Part shown: positions 3,810 to 57,205 of the stretch, in pieces | How the letters are laid out: each line of letters begins with the position of its first letter | How positions within the stretch are numbered: position 1 is the first letter of the stretch | Assembly: GCF_000007345.1 (NCBI RefSeq) | Contig: NC_003552.1 | Span: 3,410,001 to 3,474,000 of the forward strand | DNA length: 64,000 nt | From: Methanosarcina acetivorans C2A | GTDB lineage: Archaea > Halobacteriota > Methanosarcinia > Methanosarcinales > Methanosarcinaceae | Direction: 5' to 3' | Made by a program: the position numbers and the translations under genes | The notes under the pieces: generated by a model | What the model was told of the DNA's origin: nothing | Database searches by the model: none | The model's input: only the letters and a program-made list of their open reading frames with translations

Positions 3810-5018
3810 CTAGTGTCGAGTCAATCCTCAATTGTCGGATAAAGACGTGACAATTTTATCCTTGCATCATCTGTTGTGAATTGCCAATTAACCTTTGAAT
3901 TTTTGTTGTTTCTGTAATTTTGCCATGTGCATACTTCTTTCCTAACAAGTTCGATGTTATCCATTCTTCTTTTTAAACATTGACCTGTAAGTACGTTCAG
4001 TTCAATCTCTGCCATGTTCAACCAGCTTCCATGTTTTGGTGTGTACACGAACTCAAATTTGTCCCACAGCGCCTTTGCTTTGGGTGGTGGAAATGTTTCG
4101 TAGAGAGATCCAGGTATATGCGTGTTTAGATTGTCCATAACTAACGTAATTTTATCTGCATTTTCATGTTGACCTTCTATTTCTTCCAGGAAATAAGCCC
4201 ATTCTCGCTTTGTTTTTCTTTCAGTAATCTTTACCATTCTTTTCCCTGTCAATGGTTCACAAGCAAGGAATACATTGCACACCCCATTTCGCTCATATTC
4301 ATAATCGTACCTGGATGGCTTTCCTGGTGAGCAGGGAATAGGAATCCTGGTTTCTGCAATCAGTTGTTTTGGGGATTCGTCCATACATACAACAGGATTT
4401 CGTGGATCAAACGGACGTTTATAAACATCCAGAACCATTTCCATATTCGCAACAAAGCTACTGTTTTGTTCTGGAGGAATTACCCATTGTTTCTTTTGCC
4501 AGGGTTTAATTTCGTTTTTTTAAAGTACGCCGTACTGTTTCGTGAGAAATATCCTCGAAATAGCCAAGTTCTACAGCCTTATCGGCTAATAATCTCAAAG
4601 ACCATCTTGCAAAACCTTCAGGGGGTTGACTGCAACTAAGGGCGACTAAATGGGCTTCAGCGTCACCATCAACTTTTTTAGTATAAATGCGATCGCTTTC
4701 TTTCCCGTTGAGGGCAACTTCAAGTCCTTCTTCAACAAATCGCTTCTTAACACGGTCAATTTTTTTCATACTAATATTCAGGACACGTGAGATTTCTTCA
4801 TTGGTTGAATGGGTAACATTCAATTCACTTTTATCGCAATTAAGCAAGATCAGAGCATTGAGAATTTGTTGAGAGTTATGTTTTCCCTTTGAAGCAAGTT
4901 CACAAAGAGATCTACGTTCATCTTCGGTAAGTGTCACAGTATATCTAATCATAAATGATACTTATGAAGATCATTCTATGTATCTCTTAAGACCTTTCAT
5001 CGTTGACGCGACACTAGT
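3810..5018 (-). mobile_element. IS630-family insertion sequence
   Basis: Terminal inverted repeats CTAGTGTCGAGTCAA (left) and its near-complement ending CGACACTAG (right) are flanked by TA dinucleotides at 3808-3809 and 5019-5020. This is the expected TA target duplication of IS630/Tc1-mariner elements. It carries one transposase locus split in two frames. Confidence 0.9.
3821..4952 (-). pseudogene. IS630 transposase in two frames
   Basis: The 5' ORF (4952 down to 4506, 148 residues) is the paired helix-turn-helix DNA-binding half. The 3' ORF (to 3821) carries the DDE domain with Asp in VVCMDESPKQL, Asp in TLVMDNLNTH and Glu in WLNMAEIELN. The frames meet at a run of seven A on the coding strand near 4514-4520. 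The downstream frame continues NEIKPWQKKQ without loss, and the offset is equivalent to +1. This is either programmed frameshifting, known in some IS630 elements, or a one-base expansion of the homopolymer. Confidence 0.82.
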
Positions 5019-5359
5019 AGATAATTTGAACTTTACTTTGTATTTCTTCCTACAGTTCGAAATTGAAGTTAATTTTATGTTTAAGTTTCTATCGTTTGTG
5101 AAATACGACTATTAAAGGGAAAAAAATTCTATAAAGGAAAATTGAAATTCTACAACTGTATGTATAATCCATAATAAAGTCAAAACAAGAATATAAATAC
5201 TATCTAGAAACAGATAGAATTGCTCTAGACATAAAAAGAACGAACCTGAGATTTTTTAATGAAATATGGATATTTCAGAGATTATTAAGGAAAGTTGAGT
5301 ATTATAAAAATTGCAAAAATTCTATTTTTTACCGTCCCTACTATTGTTATTTATATTTA

Positions 5360-5782
5360 ATGTTTTACCTACTAAAAATATTTCTTGGTTTTCATGTTGG
5401 ACTAAATGTTTTCGGTCCAGGATTAGCCATAAGTCATGTAGGTACGATTATTGTCAACGGAAACGCAAGAATAGGTGAGAATTGCAGGATACACGTATGT
5501 ACGGTCATCGGAACTAAAGCAGGAACAAGTGGAAAAACACCAAAAATAGGAAATAATGTTTACATTGGGCCAGGAGCAAAAATATTTAGAGATATAGAAA
5601 TTGCGGATGGAATAGCTATAGGAGCTAATTCAGTCGTGAATAAGTCATTTACAGAACCAAATATTGGGATTGCAGGGATTCCAGCTAAGAAAATAAACGG
5701 TAGAGGTTCTGAGGGACTGGTCCCCAAAAAGTTGCTCATAGAACTAAAAAAAGATTATCCTGAACTTTTCGAAAAAACCTGA
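5360..5782 (+). CDS. Serine acetyltransferase-like left-handed beta-helix protein, N-truncated
   Basis: The 140 residues carry hexapeptide repeats (IGENCRIHVCTVIG, IGNNVYIGPGAKIF, IADGIAIGANSVV) typical of serine acetyltransferase and related surface-polysaccharide acyltransferases that use acetyl-CoA. The catalytic-type His is in LAISHVGTIIV. The reading frame stays open and protein-like upstream of the ATG at 5360 (RKVEYYKNCKNSIFY, as in the N-terminus of this family) back to at least 5250, but no in-frame ATG or GTG is present there. The normal start therefore seems lost or replaced by a rare codon. The 3' end runs into a cas1 relic on the other strand. Confidence 0.7.
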   Translation: MFYLLKIFLGFHVGLNVFGPGLAISHVGTIIVNGNARIGENCRIHVCTVIGTKAGTSGKTPKIGNNVYIGPGAKIFRDIEIADGIAIGANSVVNKSFTEPNIGIAGIPAKKINGRGSEGLVPKKLLIELKKDYPELFEKT

Positions 5783-6297: not shown

Positions 6298-6378
6298 GTT
6301 TGTTATAAAACCAGAAGATCAAGCAGGGAAGGTCAAAGCAGTTTGGAAAGGGGGAGAAATGTGAGTACGTATAACAAT

Positions 6379-6744
6379 GGCATTCTTTCATTCAGGTTCA
6401 GGAACGAGAGAATCGAAGTAATGCTGGTTCATCCGGGTGGGCCGATCTGGGAGAGTTAAATCAACCTAATAGAAAAATAGTGCATTTATGGGCTCTTGAA
6501 AAAGACCTGGATAACATAATTGTAAGTAATACATTTACGCCTGAGTGGCCAAAAAACTCCGGGAAAATACACGAGTATTCAGAGGTCGGCAAAGCAGGAT
6601 GGTTCGATATTGAGCTGGCTAAGAAAAAAAATTAGAAAAGGACAAATTGGTTTTATTGGTAAACTCATGGATGCTATAAATTATTCCCAGAAGGAAGAGC
6701 ACATGGACAGGGAAAAAAGGTGTAGACAAACTACATTATTTTAA
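6379..6744 (+). pseudogene. NUDIX hydrolase relic lacking the Nudix box
   Basis: The plus strand reads FRNERIEVMLVHPGGPIWES followed by a stop. In a shifted frame it continues NRKIVHLWALEKDLDNII, SNTFTPEWPKNSGKIHEY and VGKAGWFDIELAKKKI. These are the first strand and the C-terminal half of a NUDIX-fold protein (MLVHPGGP..W and EWPp.SGk..e.PEvd.agWF). The segment with the GX5EX7REUXEEXGU box is deleted, and an A-run at about 6624-6631 adds a second frameshift. The gene cannot encode an active hydrolase. Confidence 0.6.
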
Positions 6745-16901: not shown

Positions 16902-17573
16902 TTATCGAGCGCTGTTGCCTAAGCCCATTTCATCGGAAACTGGACGATTATCGAGAGCGTTGCCGATAAAGAGGAGGAAATCCTTTACAAACTGATCATA
17001 GCTGATCCCTCCGATTTCCAGAATTTTTTTCCAATTAGGGTCCAGACAGATGATGCTGTTGCACATAAGGTTCATGATAAAAGCCATTTCAAACGGATCA
17101 ATATCGTTTCTTATTGTCCCGTCTTCCATTCCTTCCTTAAGCACATCGCGGTTCAGTAAAAGGTCTTCTTTTATCTGCTCCATGACCGCCTTCATATCTT
17201 CGTTTTCTTTTTTCCTGAACAGCTTCGGTCCAATGGCACAGATCATCCGATAATATTCCTGATTTTCCTGGACGAATTCGAAGTATTTTTTTCCTATCAA
17301 CCTATGTTTTTCCCGGCCAGATATTTCCAGCTCTATGCACTCTACCAAAATTTCATGCATTTTACGCATCTTGCGTAGAGTGATGGCAAAAAACAGAGCG
17401 TCTTTGTTTTTAAAGTAAAGGTAAAGCGTACCTTTGCCAAGTTCTACCTCTTTTGCTATCTCTTCCATGGGGACGCTGTCGAAGCTCCTGGAGAAAAACA
17501 GCTTCTCAGCGGCATCGATGATAGCATTCTTTCTCTGTTCCTTTTCTCTTTCTTTTCTGTCAGCGGTTGCCAT
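16902..17573 (-). CDS. TetR-family transcriptional regulator (cassette A)
   Basis: The N-terminal TetR DNA-binding domain (IIDAAEKLFFSRSFDSVPME, then EIAKEVELGKGTLYLYF, residues about 20-60) is followed by an all-helical ligand-binding domain of about 150 residues. ATG at 17573 (MATADRKERE) is preferred to the upstream ATG at 17582. An inverted repeat ATGACC...GGTCAT lies immediately upstream at 17587-17619 and is a likely autoregulatory operator. It stands upstream of the methyltransferase on the same strand, the same order as in the other cassettes. Confidence 0.92.
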   Translation of the reverse strand: MATADRKEREKEQRKNAIIDAAEKLFFSRSFDSVPMEEIAKEVELGKGTLYLYFKNKDALFFAITLRKMRKMHEILVECIELEISGREKHRLIGKKYFEFVQENQEYYRMICAIGPKLFRKKENEDMKAVMEQIKEDLLLNRDVLKEGMEDGTIRNDIDPFEMAFIMNLMCNSIICLDPNWKKILEIGGISYDQFVKDFLLFIGNALDNRPVSDEMGLGNSAR

Positions 17574-17586
17574 TATCTTCACCGTT

Positions 17587-17619: not shown

Positions 17620-17681
17620 TGTATGAATGAGAGTCAAACAATATAAGGTTTCTGTTTTATCCCAATCAGTCATGCTGAAGC

Positions 17682-33944: not shown

Positions 33945-34632
33945 TCCTCCATTTTGACATCCTTGAATACATATCCTCACTCTTCTCTCCGGTATTCATG
34001 AGCATGTGGTATACAAGATCGCCAATTTCCAGGTAGAGTTGCTGCATAGTAACCCCATGAGTTTCCATGAATTTTCTTAGAAAGGGACTTATGTTCGCGA
34101 TACCGTCGGTAATAAAGGTGCTTACGACCACCGCAACAGCTGGATTTACATCAGGTCTATAAGTCCCGTCCTCGATGTAGAATTTTATTGCCAGAAATAT
34201 ACTCTCATAGATCTCTTCAGTAAACTCAATGATCTCTTTTGCATCGGAACTCATACTATTTGCATCCGATAGATCGAACCTTCCTGACCGGAAATAAATA
34301 CAGGCTCTGGCGTAGTCAGGGTATTCCTGAATAAACTTAATGGATGCCATGCTCAGTTCACCGAACTTGATATCACTAGCCTGCGCACTTTTTTGTTCCT
34401 CTGTGATCATAGCGCGGAGAATTTTGATTCCACGATTTACGACAGCAAAATAGAGTGATTCCTTATCTTTAAAGTAAAGATACAGAGTTGCCTTATTCAA
34501 TTCTACTTCATTTGCAATCTCGTCCATTGTGACATCATCGTAACCTCGTGAAAAGAAAAGTTTTTCAGCAGCGTTGAGGATGTCTTCACGTCTTTGAGCT
34601 TTTTCCCGCTGCTTTCGTTCTGCTAGTGTCAT
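33910..34632 (-). CDS. TetR-family regulator (cassette B)
   Basis: The 240-residue protein has the TetR helix-turn-helix (ILNAAEKLFFSRGYDDVTMD, EIANEVELNKATLYLYFKD, residues about 18-58) and a C-terminal ligand domain. Its 3' end overlaps the methyltransferase start. A perfect 31-bp palindrome lies 58 bases upstream of the start (34690-34720). It is very similar to the TetR at 40120-40842 and to the relic at 42015-42696. Confidence 0.93.
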   Translation of the reverse strand: MTLAERKQREKAQRREDILNAAEKLFFSRGYDDVTMDEIANEVELNKATLYLYFKDKESLYFAVVNRGIKILRAMITEEQKSAQASDIKFGELSMASIKFIQEYPDYARACIYFRSGRFDLSDANSMSSDAKEIIEFTEEIYESIFLAIKFYIEDGTYRPDVNPAVAVVVSTFITDGIANISPFLRKFMETHGVTMQQLYLEIGDLVYHMLMNTGEKSEDMYSRMSKWRNDRFATDQDED

Positions 34633-34689: not shown

Positions 34690-34720
34690 TAACTCTTAGT
34701 TATTTAATAACTAAGAGTTA
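34690..34720. promoter_or_regulatory. 31-bp perfect palindrome, TetR operator B
   Basis: TAACTCTTAGTTATT, one central T and the exact inverted AATAACTAAGAGTTA form the dyad. The copy in decayed cassette E (42957-42987) differs by one base. The position upstream of TetR fits an autoregulatory operator. Confidence 0.75.
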
Positions 34721-37699: not shown

Positions 37700-38368
37700 T
37701 TATTTTGCGTCCCCCCTTTCCGTGTTCATAAGCATCCGATGCACGAATTCGGCAACATCTGTAAAAAACTGATATTTATCTATTCCCCTCTTTTCCAGTA
37801 ATTTTATAAAATCTGAACGCATTTCAGTTAGATTTTTGAGAATCAGAGTCAAAAAAACGGTCACTTCTACAGGGTCCACATCACGCCGAATTAATCCTTC
37901 ATCGATTCCTGATTTTATCGCGTTGCACGTTATGACAAAAGTATCCTGGCGAAGCTTGAGAATTTCTTTTGCAACTTCATTCATATCTTCACTATCTTCA
38001 ATATCGAACCTATCCGACCGAAAATAAAGATATGCTCGGTTATGATTTGGATATTTGTTAACAAATTCAAAGTATACTCTTGCAATTGTATCCAGTATTT
38101 CGACTCCTGTTTTGCAGCTTTTTATACTTTCTTCGATCATGGCATTGAGGAGTTTTATGCCTCGAAGGACAATAGTGAAAAAAAGTGACTCTTTGTCTTT
38201 GAAGTAGAGGTAAAGCGCGGCTTTGCTCAGCTCAACTTCATTAGCAATGTCATCCATCGAAACGCTATCATACCCTCTGGAGAAGAAAAGTTTCTCTGCT
38301 GCATCGAGTATATAATTGCGCTTCCTCTCTTTTTCCTGTTCCTTAATTTCCTTTATTGACAATTCCAT
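37700..38368 (-). CDS. TetR-family regulator (cassette C)
   Basis: The DNA-binding domain is ILDAAEKLFFSRGYDSVSMD followed by IANEVELSKAALYLYF, with a variable C-terminal ligand domain. ATG at 38368 (MELSIKEIKE) is preferred to 38413, because the palindrome at 38413-38433 would otherwise overlap the start. Its ligand domain differs from those of cassettes B and D, in line with a different methyltransferase type downstream. Confidence 0.92.
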   Translation of the reverse strand: MELSIKEIKEQEKERKRNYILDAAEKLFFSRGYDSVSMDDIANEVELSKAALYLYFKDKESLFFTIVLRGIKLLNAMIEESIKSCKTGVEILDTIARVYFEFVNKYPNHNRAYLYFRSDRFDIEDSEDMNEVAKEILKLRQDTFVITCNAIKSGIDEGLIRRDVDPVEVTVFLTLILKNLTEMRSDFIKLLEKRGIDKYQFFTDVAEFVHRMLMNTERGDAK

Positions 38369-38412: not shown

Positions 38413-38433
38413 ATTATGACTTATAGTCATAAT
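38413..38433. promoter_or_regulatory. Candidate TetR operator C
   Basis: ATTATGAC, spacer TTATA and inverted GTCATAAT form a perfect dyad 45 bases upstream of the preferred TetR start. Confidence 0.65.
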
Positions 38434-40145: not shown

Positions 40146-40842
40146 ATCTATCACCCATCCATTTTAACGTTCTAGCATGGATATCCTTACTCTTCTCTCC
40201 GGTATTCATGGTCATGTAGATCACAAGATCGCTGATTCCCAGGTAAAGTTGTTGCACAGTAATCCCATGAGTTTCCATGAACTTTCTTTGAAAGGGACTT
40301 ATGTTCAGGAGACCGTCGGCAATAATAGAATTTAAGATCAACACTACAACTGGATTCAGATCAGGTCTATAAGTTCCATCCTCGATGTAGTTTTTTATTG
40401 CCGAAAGTGATTTCTCGTAGAGTTCTTCTATGAATTCAATGATCTCTCTTGCATCGGAATTCATATCTTTGCTATTCGAAAAATCGAATTTTCCTGACTG
40501 GATGTAATTGCAGGCTCTGAGATAGTCGGGGTATTCTTGAATGAATTTACTGCATGCCATGCTTATTCCACCGGCTTTGAGACCGCTAGCCTGCGCATTT
40601 TTTGCTTCCTCCGCAACCATAGCGCGGAGGATTTTGATTCCACGATTTACGACAGCAAAATAGAGTGATTCCTTATCTTTGAAGTAAAGATACAATGTAG
40701 CCTTATTCAATTCTACTTTGCTTGCAATCTCATCCATTGAGACGTCATCGTAACTTCGTGAAAAGAAAAGTTTTTCAGCAGCGTTGAGGATGTCTTCGCG
40801 TCTTTGAGCTTTTTCCCGCTGCCTTCTTTCTGTCAGTGTCAT
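40120..40842 (-). CDS. TetR-family regulator (cassette D)
   Basis: The 240-residue protein is highly similar to the cassette B TetR (ILNAAEKLFFSRSYDDVSMD, ASKVELNKATLYLYF). The ligand domain is more diverged, for example QSGKFDFSNSKDMNSDARE. Its last codons overlap the methyltransferase start. An inverted repeat centred 67 bases upstream (40900-40917) is the likely operator and differs in sequence from that of cassette B. Confidence 0.93.
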   Translation of the reverse strand: MTLTERRQREKAQRREDILNAAEKLFFSRSYDDVSMDEIASKVELNKATLYLYFKDKESLYFAVVNRGIKILRAMVAEEAKNAQASGLKAGGISMACSKFIQEYPDYLRACNYIQSGKFDFSNSKDMNSDAREIIEFIEELYEKSLSAIKNYIEDGTYRPDLNPVVVLILNSIIADGLLNISPFQRKFMETHGITVQQLYLGISDLVIYMTMNTGEKSKDIHARTLKWMGDRYATDQNKS

Positions 40843-40899: not shown

Positions 40900-40917
40900 A
40901 ATAACTATTTAGTTATT
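40900..40917. promoter_or_regulatory. Candidate TetR operator D
   Basis: AATAACTA, TT and inverted TAGTTATT form a perfect dyad at the same distance from the TetR start as in cassette B. The half-site core TAGTTATT is shared with operator B. Confidence 0.65.
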
Positions 40918-53832: not shown

Positions 53833-54456
53833 TTACTTTTGATAGCTTTTCCTGAACTGAATCATGTAATTATAACCGAGATCAACAAGGTTTATCTTTT
53901 CAAAACCATATTTCGCTATTAAATTTTCCAGCTCTTCAGGTGACAAACGCATGTGGAGTGGTGGACCGAACGACATTTCTTCTTTTTTACATTCGACAAT
54001 TGCCAGGCGCCCATCAGGTTTTAAAACCCGGTGGATTTCGCTGAATATCACGTCACTATCTTTAGCCAGATCAAGCGAATGCAGCACAGTAGAAATAAAA
54101 TACACATCGATACAGCTTTCTTCGATTGGTAATGGTCTGGCAATATCAGAAACCATTCCCTTGATATTCTTTATTCCTTCCAGATCAGCTTTTTCTGTCA
54201 GATTATCAATAAGCTCCTGCCATTTATCCAGCGCGTACACCATCCCGGAATTCCCGACTATTTTAGAAGCCCAAATTGAATAGTCTCCCGGCCCGCAGCC
54301 CATATCAAGAAAAAATTCTCCAGCTTTCAGTTTTAGCTCGCTGAATATTAAATCAGGATCATGCATCCAGAAGCTGCCTCGACCACATCTTTGTTCGTTT
54401 TCTCTATGACTTGTATCGTGGTCACATCCTTTTTTACATATTTTTGTATCAGTCAT
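53833..54456 (-). CDS. Class I SAM-methyltransferase, UbiE-like
   Basis: ATG at 54456 overlaps the stop of the CooC-like gene by 8 bases and is preferred over 54474. Motif I is FFLDMGCGPGDYSIWASKIV; VYALDKWQELIDNL, DVYFISTVLHSLDL and VLKPDGRLAIVECKK follow. It belongs to the methyltransferase 11 group acting on small molecules. An N-terminal CKKGCDHDTSHRENEQRCGR segment rich in Cys and His may bind metal. Coupled translation with the CooC-like ATPase suggests a shared pathway. Confidence 0.88.
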   Translation of the reverse strand: MTDTKICKKGCDHDTSHRENEQRCGRGSFWMHDPDLIFSELKLKAGEFFLDMGCGPGDYSIWASKIVGNSGMVYALDKWQELIDNLTEKADLEGIKNIKGMVSDIARPLPIEESCIDVYFISTVLHSLDLAKDSDVIFSEIHRVLKPDGRLAIVECKKEEMSFGPPLHMRLSPEELENLIAKYGFEKINLVDLGYNYMIQFRKSYQK

Positions 54457-55240
54457 ATATGCACTTCTCCTCAAGAACCTGCAATATATGCTGAACTTCG
54501 GTGTTTCTTGTCATAACCTCCTCGCCTCTAAGTCCTGCCAGAGAAAGAGTAGGATCTGCCGGAATAGCTGCAATGACTGTGTGCCGGTCGCCAATAGCTT
54601 CCCACATGAATTGTTCGTTTGATTTATCGACTTTGTTCAGGACAAAGAATATCGGTTTGCCGATGCTGCCGCTTAATTCCGCTACCTTTTCGGATAATCT
54701 CAGAGATTCGTAGGACGGGTCGATAACCATAAGGATCGCATCCACGCTCTTTTCGATACCCCTTCCAAAATGTTCGATTCCCGCCTCAGTGTCAACAATA
54801 ACTACCTCACCATGGTTCAATCTCAACTTTTCGATAAATTCTTTTACCAGTATTCCCATCGAGCAAGCGCATCCTTCTCCAACTTCGTGTATCTTTCCTA
54901 TGGCAAGGAGCTTCACTTCCCCGTTCTCCGAAAGATATGCCTGAGGAATGTCAGCAAAACTTAATTTGCCTTCAAAGAAAGAGACCGAATCCCATTCAGG
55001 CGCCGCCTGCATGATTTTCTCAAGTACAGCACTTTTGCCGCCGAAATATTCCATGAAATCGGGAGGAAGATCAACTCCCAGTTGTCTGTGAAGGCCGAAG
55101 TTCGATTCATCTGTATCGATTACAAGAACAGAGTTTCCATTTTCCACAAGAGCCTTTGCGAGGAGAGCTGCAATAGTACTCTTACCACTTCCTCCTTTTC
55201 CACATATAGCGAGTTTGTATGCTTTTTTATTATTCATCAT
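54449..55240 (-). CDS. CooC-like nickel/metalloenzyme maturation ATPase
   Basis: The 263-residue SIMIBI-class P-loop ATPase has deviant Walker A CGKGGSGKSTIAALLA (about residue 13), Switch I VLVIDTDESNFGLHRQLG and Walker B VVIVDTEAGIEHFGRG. The Cys-x-Cys motif GEGCACSMG (about residue 121) is the dimer-bridging metal site of CooC, which inserts nickel into CO dehydrogenase. No CO dehydrogenase gene is adjacent. It is coupled to a methyltransferase, so it may mature another metalloprotein. An AAGAATACTAA direct repeat lies upstream. Confidence 0.9.
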   Translation of the reverse strand: MMNNKKAYKLAICGKGGSGKSTIAALLAKALVENGNSVLVIDTDESNFGLHRQLGVDLPPDFMEYFGGKSAVLEKIMQAAPEWDSVSFFEGKLSFADIPQAYLSENGEVKLLAIGKIHEVGEGCACSMGILVKEFIEKLRLNHGEVVIVDTEAGIEHFGRGIEKSVDAILMVIDPSYESLRLSEKVAELSGSIGKPIFFVLNKVDKSNEQFMWEAIGDRHTVIAAIPADPTLSLAGLRGEEVMTRNTEVQHILQVLEEKCIYD

Positions 55241-55831: not shown

Positions 55832-56425
55832 TTAACTGGATTTTTGCAGTATTAGATTTTTTTCCCTGGACCCGAGCTTCAAAAGTACTGCTCTGTCGAA
55901 AGGAAACTTAGGTCCAGAGACCTGTTCCAGCCCTACAGAGCTGGCAACCTCCAGTGTAGTATCAAAATTGGACTTTGAGACATGGAATTTAGGCTCAACG
56001 ATCAAAAACCTGCCATCAGGCTTGAGGTGGGAAGCAACTTCGCTCAAAAAACTCTTTTTATCCGGAACTTCATGTACCATATAGAATGCCAGTGCAAAAT
56101 CCGTCATCTCGGAGATACCCAGCTTTTCAGGCTGGGCTTTATGAAGGAATATACGAGAATTAAGTCCCTGACGCTTGCTCTTATTTTTTAGTATCTGAAG
56201 CATCTCATCCTGAATGTCCACTGAGATAACCCTTCCTTCTTCGCCTACCAGCTTAGCCATTGCCAAGGAAAAGAAACCCGGCCCGCAGCCCAGATCCAGG
56301 ACAGTCTGGCCTTCTTTGATATATCTACCAACAATTTTGTAAGGGTTTTGCAAAATCTTGCGAAGCCAGTTGTCAAGGCTCCAGGCTCTTTGATAAGGAC
56401 ATACATCCGTAGATTTTTTCGTCAT
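55832..56425 (-). CDS. Class I SAM-methyltransferase under TetR control (cassette G)
   Basis: The 197-residue methyltransferase has motif I TVLDLGCGPGFFSLAMAKLV (about residue 42), VISVDIQDEMLQIL, DFALAFYMVHEVPDK and HLKPDGRFLIVEPKFHVS. It is of the UbiE/ArsM-like small-molecule type, without the cysteine set of arsenite methyltransferases. A 19-bp palindrome 80 bases upstream (56506-56524) is identical in its core to the one upstream of the TetR gene, so both genes should respond to the same ligand. Confidence 0.9.
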   Translation of the reverse strand: MTKKSTDVCPYQRAWSLDNWLRKILQNPYKIVGRYIKEGQTVLDLGCGPGFFSLAMAKLVGEEGRVISVDIQDEMLQILKNKSKRQGLNSRIFLHKAQPEKLGISEMTDFALAFYMVHEVPDKKSFLSEVASHLKPDGRFLIVEPKFHVSKSNFDTTLEVASSVGLEQVSGPKFPFDRAVLLKLGSREKNLILQKSS

Positions 56426-56505: not shown

Positions 56506-56524
56506 TTGATTGACTGTCAATCAA
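56506..56524. promoter_or_regulatory. TetR operator G, methyltransferase promoter
   Basis: The perfect palindrome TTGATTGACTGTCAATCAA lies upstream of the methyltransferase. The 17-bp core recurs at 57189-57205 upstream of TetR. Confidence 0.85.
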
Positions 56525-56565
56525 GAACGAGTTCAAAAAAATTATCATTTAGGTATTAACAAAAG

Positions 56566-57171
56566 TTAAATTTCCAGGTGGAAACGATAGTCATTTACTC
56601 CAAGCACCCTGGATATAATCTCCTCTAAAGCGGCCTTCATTCTCTTACGAGTTTCGTGATCCCATGATAAATTATGAGAAAGATAAAGCGTTGAAGCAAT
56701 CAGAAATCCAAATGATTCGCCTGGATATTCTGTTTTAAAAATTCCTTCTTCAGTACCTTTTGATAATATCTCAGTTACGACTGGTGACATTCCCTCTTCG
56801 AGAGCTTTCTCCACTTTCTGATGAAGCAAATGATTTCCTTTTTGATGCATAAGTTTCATAATGCCCAGATCTGAGTCATTGGCTTTTAGAACTCTATTCA
56901 GTATGGAGTTAATCTTTGTTGTCGGGTCTTCATTGCCTTTTGCAATATTCTTTACGTCTTCAACATACGGGGCTACAATCTTTTCGGCTACTGCTTCCAG
57001 AATATCTTCCTTGGACTTGAAATAATGGTAAAATGTTCCCTGACCAACCTCAACCTTTTTGACGATCTCACTGACTGCCGTGTCTTCATATCCCTTTTTT
57101 GCAAAAAGGCTCTCGGCCGCTTCAATCAGTTCCAACCTTCTCTCTGCGGGGTCTTTTACTATTCTGGTCAT
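56566..57171 (-). CDS. TetR-family regulator (cassette G)
   Basis: The 201-residue protein has helix-turn-helix LIEAAESLFAKKGYEDTAVS, then EIVKKVEVGQGTFYHYFKSK, and a ligand domain. It is less related to the other TetR proteins of the window. The operator at 57189-57205 is 18 bases upstream of its start (autoregulation), and the same palindrome precedes the methyltransferase on the same strand. Confidence 0.94.
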   Translation of the reverse strand: MTRIVKDPAERRLELIEAAESLFAKKGYEDTAVSEIVKKVEVGQGTFYHYFKSKEDILEAVAEKIVAPYVEDVKNIAKGNEDPTTKINSILNRVLKANDSDLGIMKLMHQKGNHLLHQKVEKALEEGMSPVVTEILSKGTEEGIFKTEYPGESFGFLIASTLYLSHNLSWDHETRKRMKAALEEIISRVLGVNDYRFHLEI

Positions 57172-57188
57172 TGCTTACATCCTATTAT

Positions 57189-57205
57189 TGATTGACTGTC
57201 AATCA
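57189..57205. promoter_or_regulatory. TetR operator G, autoregulatory copy
   Basis: TGATTGACTGTCAATCA is a perfect 17-bp palindrome immediately upstream of the TetR start, identical to the centre of 56506-56524. Confidence 0.85.

Follow-up and report, generated by a model that had tools for sequence, protein, structure and literature searches.

Identical palindromes ahead of a TetR gene and its neighboring methyltransferase gene in Methanosarcina acetivorans: a probable two-promoter switch with relatives in archaea and bacteria

TetR-family members are repressors for the most part, and a regulator with operators at its own gene and at a neighbor is the textbook arrangement. Among archaea, few TetR regulators have a defined operator. 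One that was studied experimentally is FadR of Sulfolobus acidocaldarius, which controls a 30-kb fatty-acid cluster: it has four semi-palindromic sites in the genome, there is a site at its own gene, and acyl-CoA releases the repression (PMC6449355). The regulator that we describe here, from Methanosarcina acetivorans, is likewise an archaeal TetR protein with few candidate sites, one of which is at its own gene. Unlike S. acidocaldarius FadR, it has two sites only, and its putative target is a single methyltransferase.

The gene pair and its two palindromes

We analyzed a 64-kb stretch of the M. acetivorans genome (the window). It contains a tetR gene (56566..57171, minus strand), which encodes a putative autorepressor of 201 amino acids. 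The assignment is based on the open reading frame, on Pfam, and on an AlphaFold model. The N-terminal helix-turn-helix matches TetR_N (PF00440; E = 5.2e-18, 65 bits versus a cut-off of 24), and the C-terminal domain, which is of the ligand-binding type, matches TetR_C_39 (PF21303). The model (pLDDT 91.7) has nine helices and the all-helical TetR fold.

The gene's neighbor, on the same strand (55832..56425), encodes a class I SAM-dependent methyltransferase of 197 amino acids (MTase; Pfam Methyltransf_31/25/11), which is the putative target. By both sequence and fold, its closest solved structure is Aquifex 3dh0. The best ArsM models gave 64-68 bits (cut-offs of 263-575), and the score for the UbiE model was also below the cut-off; the assignment of the MTase stops at the generic class I fold. 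Directly downstream of the pair (53833-55240, minus strand) lie a gene for a MinD/CooC-like ATPase and then another methyltransferase-like gene, with no operator there.

The original prediction held that a perfect 17-mer, TGATTGACTGTCAATCA, precedes each of the two genes and occurs nowhere else in the window, and all of this was borne out. The 17-mer is an inverted repeat with perfect 8-bp arms (TGATTGAC and GTCAATCA) around a single central base, and it matches exactly at 57189..57205 (O1) and at 56507..56523 (O2). O1 is 17 bp 5' of the ATG of tetR, so at the level of sequence there is a palindromic operator at the regulator's own promoter. The location of the other copy can be given more precisely: O2 lies within the gap between tetR and the MTase gene, 42 bp past the stop codon of tetR and 81 bp ahead of the ATG of the MTase. 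Thus, although the genes are co-directional, each has its own palindrome.

Neither the window nor the entire 5,751,492-bp genome, which is a single contig, contains a third exact copy (two forward matches in the genome, versus none for the reversed control). A genome-wide scan for the 17-mer had been proposed as a way to refute the prediction, if the sequence were widespread without TetR; instead, the two genome sites are both at this pair. When we allowed up to three mismatches to TGAYTGACNGTCARTCA, the genome had 28 matches, as compared to 39 for the reversed control, which implies that there is no excess of sites beyond O1 and O2. The best match after these two has two mismatches. (A shuffled window had a mean of 0.27 matches to the operator at up to three mismatches.) Across the phylum, the strict pattern TGATTGACNGTCAATCA was found in 2 of 393 genomes, both of which have the TetR gene described here. 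The regulon apparently consists of just two promoters, those of tetR and of the MTase gene.

We considered whether, instead of being a regulator's site, the palindrome might be a repeat (mobile or structural) or the hairpin of a tetR terminator. O2 is a short way past the stop codon of tetR, and inverted 8-bp arms could fold into a hairpin. However, the genome has the palindrome just twice, and one of these copies, O1, precedes tetR, which is not a place for a terminator. In addition, the sequence itself, beyond its ability to pair, is conserved across domains (see below). We rejected the terminator or repeat reading on the basis of copy number and position, and we consider it hardly credible.

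The window contains five TetR genes (genome-wide, 15 TetR-like matches were found). Three of the others, all on the minus strand, have different palindromes of their own upstream: TTAGTTATTTAATAACTAA (at 34696) for the gene at 34432-34632, TTATGACTTATAGTCATAA (at 38414) for 38168-38368, and AATAACTATTTAGTTATT (at 40900) for 40636-40842. The remaining tetR gene (16902-17582, minus strand) has a weak, imperfect palindrome, TGTTTGACTCTCATTCA, about 50 bp ahead of it (17624-17640). This is three mismatches from the operator, and it may be a related operator of this paralogue or it may be due to chance.

Co-occurrence of the sites and the regulator in Methanosarcina

Among 30 other Methanosarcina genomes, four contain an orthologue of the TetR protein (72-90% identity). 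All four have the TetR-MTase pair with a palindrome before each gene. In L041 (genome G068), both sites are TGACTGACTGTCAATCA; in L040 (Methanosarcina sp. KYL-1), one site is an exact copy of the 17-mer and the other is TGACTGACTGTCAATCA. In L042 and L043 (genomes G063 and G082), the sites have diverged, with one or two departures from the consensus, and are still recognizable. Upstream of tetR in L043, the first palindrome has a weaker one, AGATTGGCAGCCAATCA (6369-6385), next to it. As a separate observation, L041 (2170-3967) and L040 (1750-3543) contain, beside the pair, a second and divergent pair, formed by a TetR gene and a gene for a 311-amino-acid methyltransferase-like protein; no such second pair was observed next to the genes in the window.

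Five other Methanosarcina genomes contain an orthologue of the MTase and no orthologue of the TetR protein, and none of the five has the operator upstream of the MTase gene. Two of these MTase copies look damaged or altered: in G062 (L140, 1495-1917), the copy is decaying, with an internal stop codon and the peptide KVISV expanded in tandem, and in G055 the start position is ATA. The site is thus present in five of five genomes with the regulator and in zero of five without it, so the site and the regulator come and go together.

Could O1 and O2 derive from a single ancestral promoter region by copying, with only one of them functional? The sites are identical to each other in M. acetivorans (G000), as well as in G068 with the common variant TGACTGACTGTCAATCA, and such identity could reflect a copying event or conversion. 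But both sites persist in five genomes, they remain recognizable in G063 and G082 even though they have diverged from each other there, and the MTase site is missing where TetR is absent. A copied promoter with one idle site is therefore very unlikely. In L040, a transposase-like ORF of 330 amino acids (4473-5465) lies between tetR and the unit formed by O2 and the MTase gene. Both operators are retained, and O2 stays with the MTase gene, an arrangement that suggests a separate, operator-controlled promoter for the MTase.

Relatives in archaea and bacteria

We then scanned 84,980 species genomes with an alignment of the TetR protein, using the recognition-helix peptide as the seed, and obtained 80 loci. 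Their TetR proteins are 31-90% identical to the one in the window and belong to Methanosarcinales, ANME-2, Theionarchaea, Thermoplasmatota, Paenibacillus, Clostridia, and other groups. The 80 loci are not phylogenetically independent, as many are from close relatives (Paenibacillus and ANME-2), and seeding by the recognition helix favors proteins that read DNA with the same residues. Among the relatives, both the N-terminal arm and the residues QGTFY.YF of the recognition helix are conserved, but because the relatives were gathered partly by this peptide, conservation of the recognition helix is not independent evidence. We also considered an origin by transfer from bacteria. In a phylogenetic tree, the Methanosarcina proteins form a group (support 99/98) with those of Methanotrichaceae and of one unclassified archaeon; the deeper forks are weak and favor no direction or time for any transfer.

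A site of the form TGAYTGA-N2/3-TCARTCA, with at most one mismatch, is present within 170 bp upstream of tetR in 70 of the 80 relatives, and in 52 of the 80 it is present without a mismatch. The background rate for the former was 0.18% in dinucleotide shuffles and 0 of 400 in other stretches of the same loci. The other ten relatives have no such site at up to one mismatch within 170 bp. The operator has 17 bp in 59 loci and 16 bp, with a spacer that is one base shorter, in 11. The most common form is TGACTGAC-N-GTCAGTCA; the window has T at position 4 and A at position 14, each of which is shared by a minority of sites (6 of 59). In Methanocella, tetR and a gene for an MMPL exporter are preceded by about five operator-like palindromes in tandem (L069, around 2733-2835), which comprise TGACTAAGAGTCAGTCA and shorter versions.

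Because a near-identical palindrome precedes the TetR relatives in both domains, the 17-mer is very probably the binding site of the TetR protein itself. The original prediction of a single TetR regulon with autoregulation is well supported as a regulon of two promoters, given that the sites track tetR within Methanosarcina and that this type of operator is conserved in archaeal and bacterial relatives; binding and the direction of control are the predicted parts. As judged from these sequences, the TetR protein and the adjacent MTase very probably form a small switch of a well-known type, under its own control. In the mechanism that we propose, and which we consider highly likely, a TetR dimer would bind O1, beside its own start codon, and O2, ahead of the MTase gene, and would repress both promoters. 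A small molecule in the C-terminal domain would release TetR from the operators, so that the regulator and one modifying enzyme would be induced together. The MTase would then have a detoxifying or modifying role.

Alternatively, the TetR protein might bind both sites but act as an activator, or it might repress itself while activating the MTase gene. O2 is 81 bp from the start of the MTase gene, which is far more than the 17 bp between O1 and tetR, and when we tried to place TATA boxes relative to O1 or O2, no convincing TATA box was found. However, the distance from the operator to the start codon ranges from 27 to 150 bp among the relatives, as would be expected if 5' leaders vary, and the general tendency of the family toward repression also argues against activation. 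We view an activating role as improbable and repression of both genes as the better account.

The genes that adjoin the relatives are of several types. Paenibacillus relatives have a divergent MFS transporter, and the gap between the two genes often contains two operators; relatives from ANME-2 and Clostridia adjoin MacB-type ABC exporters; the Methanocella relative adjoins an MMPL exporter; and other partners include a nitroreductase, a glycosyltransferase, and a hydrolase. These partners (MFS, ABC, and MMPL transporters, nitroreductase, and glycosyltransferase) are typical of TetR-controlled genes. Since the relatives are mostly beside efflux pumps or modifying enzymes, a response to a small molecule, involving stress or modification, is likely. 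Methyltransferases are partners outside of Methanosarcina as well. In two Theionarchaea loci (L058 and L084), an operator lies about 40 bp before a SAM methyltransferase gene that follows tetR, and in Paenibacillus oenotherae (L120), the operator, a methyltransferase gene, and tetR are in one row. These methyltransferases are only 27-32% identical to the MTase in the window.

A TetR subfamily of archaea and bacteria may have kept the operator TGACTGA-N2/3-TCAGTCA, in either of two spacings, and swapped its targets. Most lineages would have efflux pumps as targets and Methanosarcina a lone methyltransferase, whereas Theionarchaea and one Paenibacillus would have acquired a methyltransferase as target separately. 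We give this scenario about even chances. If the operator was kept while the targets were exchanged, then the regulator and operator may be a portable cassette, compatible with the transcription machinery of bacteria as well as that of archaea. An operator that is common to both domains also yields a prediction for dozens of uncharacterized TetR genes. In M. acetivorans, the proposal is directly testable, because the system has two sites and only one target gene and the host genus is amenable to genetics; it could also serve as a repressor-operator pair for Methanosarcina.

Comparison with known systems

In the open literature, we found no description of the operator or of the TetR-methyltransferase pair, which is a weak negative as most subscription papers were outside our reach. 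Specifically, we came across no account of a single operator family that is common to both domains and has exchanged targets.

The best match to the TetR protein, by sequence (E = 2.5e-22) and by fold, is a TetR/AcrR protein from Clostridium acetobutylicum (NP_350189; PDB 3b81), which is 27% identical. The top fold matches in the PDB are all TetR proteins, and 3b81 is followed by FadR of Bacillus subtilis (YsiA; PDB 1vi0, 3whb, 3whc). This regulator of fatty-acid metabolism is among the nearest named relatives by both sequence and fold, and its operator is reportedly TGAATGA-N4-TCATTCA. If so, both operators have the layout TGA..TGA/TCA..TCA, but the inner bases and the spacing differ. The TetR protein in the window scored 70.1 bits against the NCBIfam equivalog for FadR (NF053878), far below the cut-off of 200. 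No genes for fatty-acid degradation are linked to tetR, and the MTase is the sole consistent partner in Methanosarcina.

In its layout, the pair resembles TetR-TetA, QacR-QacA, and AcrR-AcrAB, which likewise have palindromic operators at the regulator and at the adjacent target and a small regulon. In these systems, the target is an efflux pump, and relatives of the TetR protein in the window do adjoin MFS, MacB-type, and MMPL transporters. Unlike systems of the TetR-TetA type, the pair in M. acetivorans has a single soluble methyltransferase as its putative target, and its two genes point in the same direction, each with an operator of its own.
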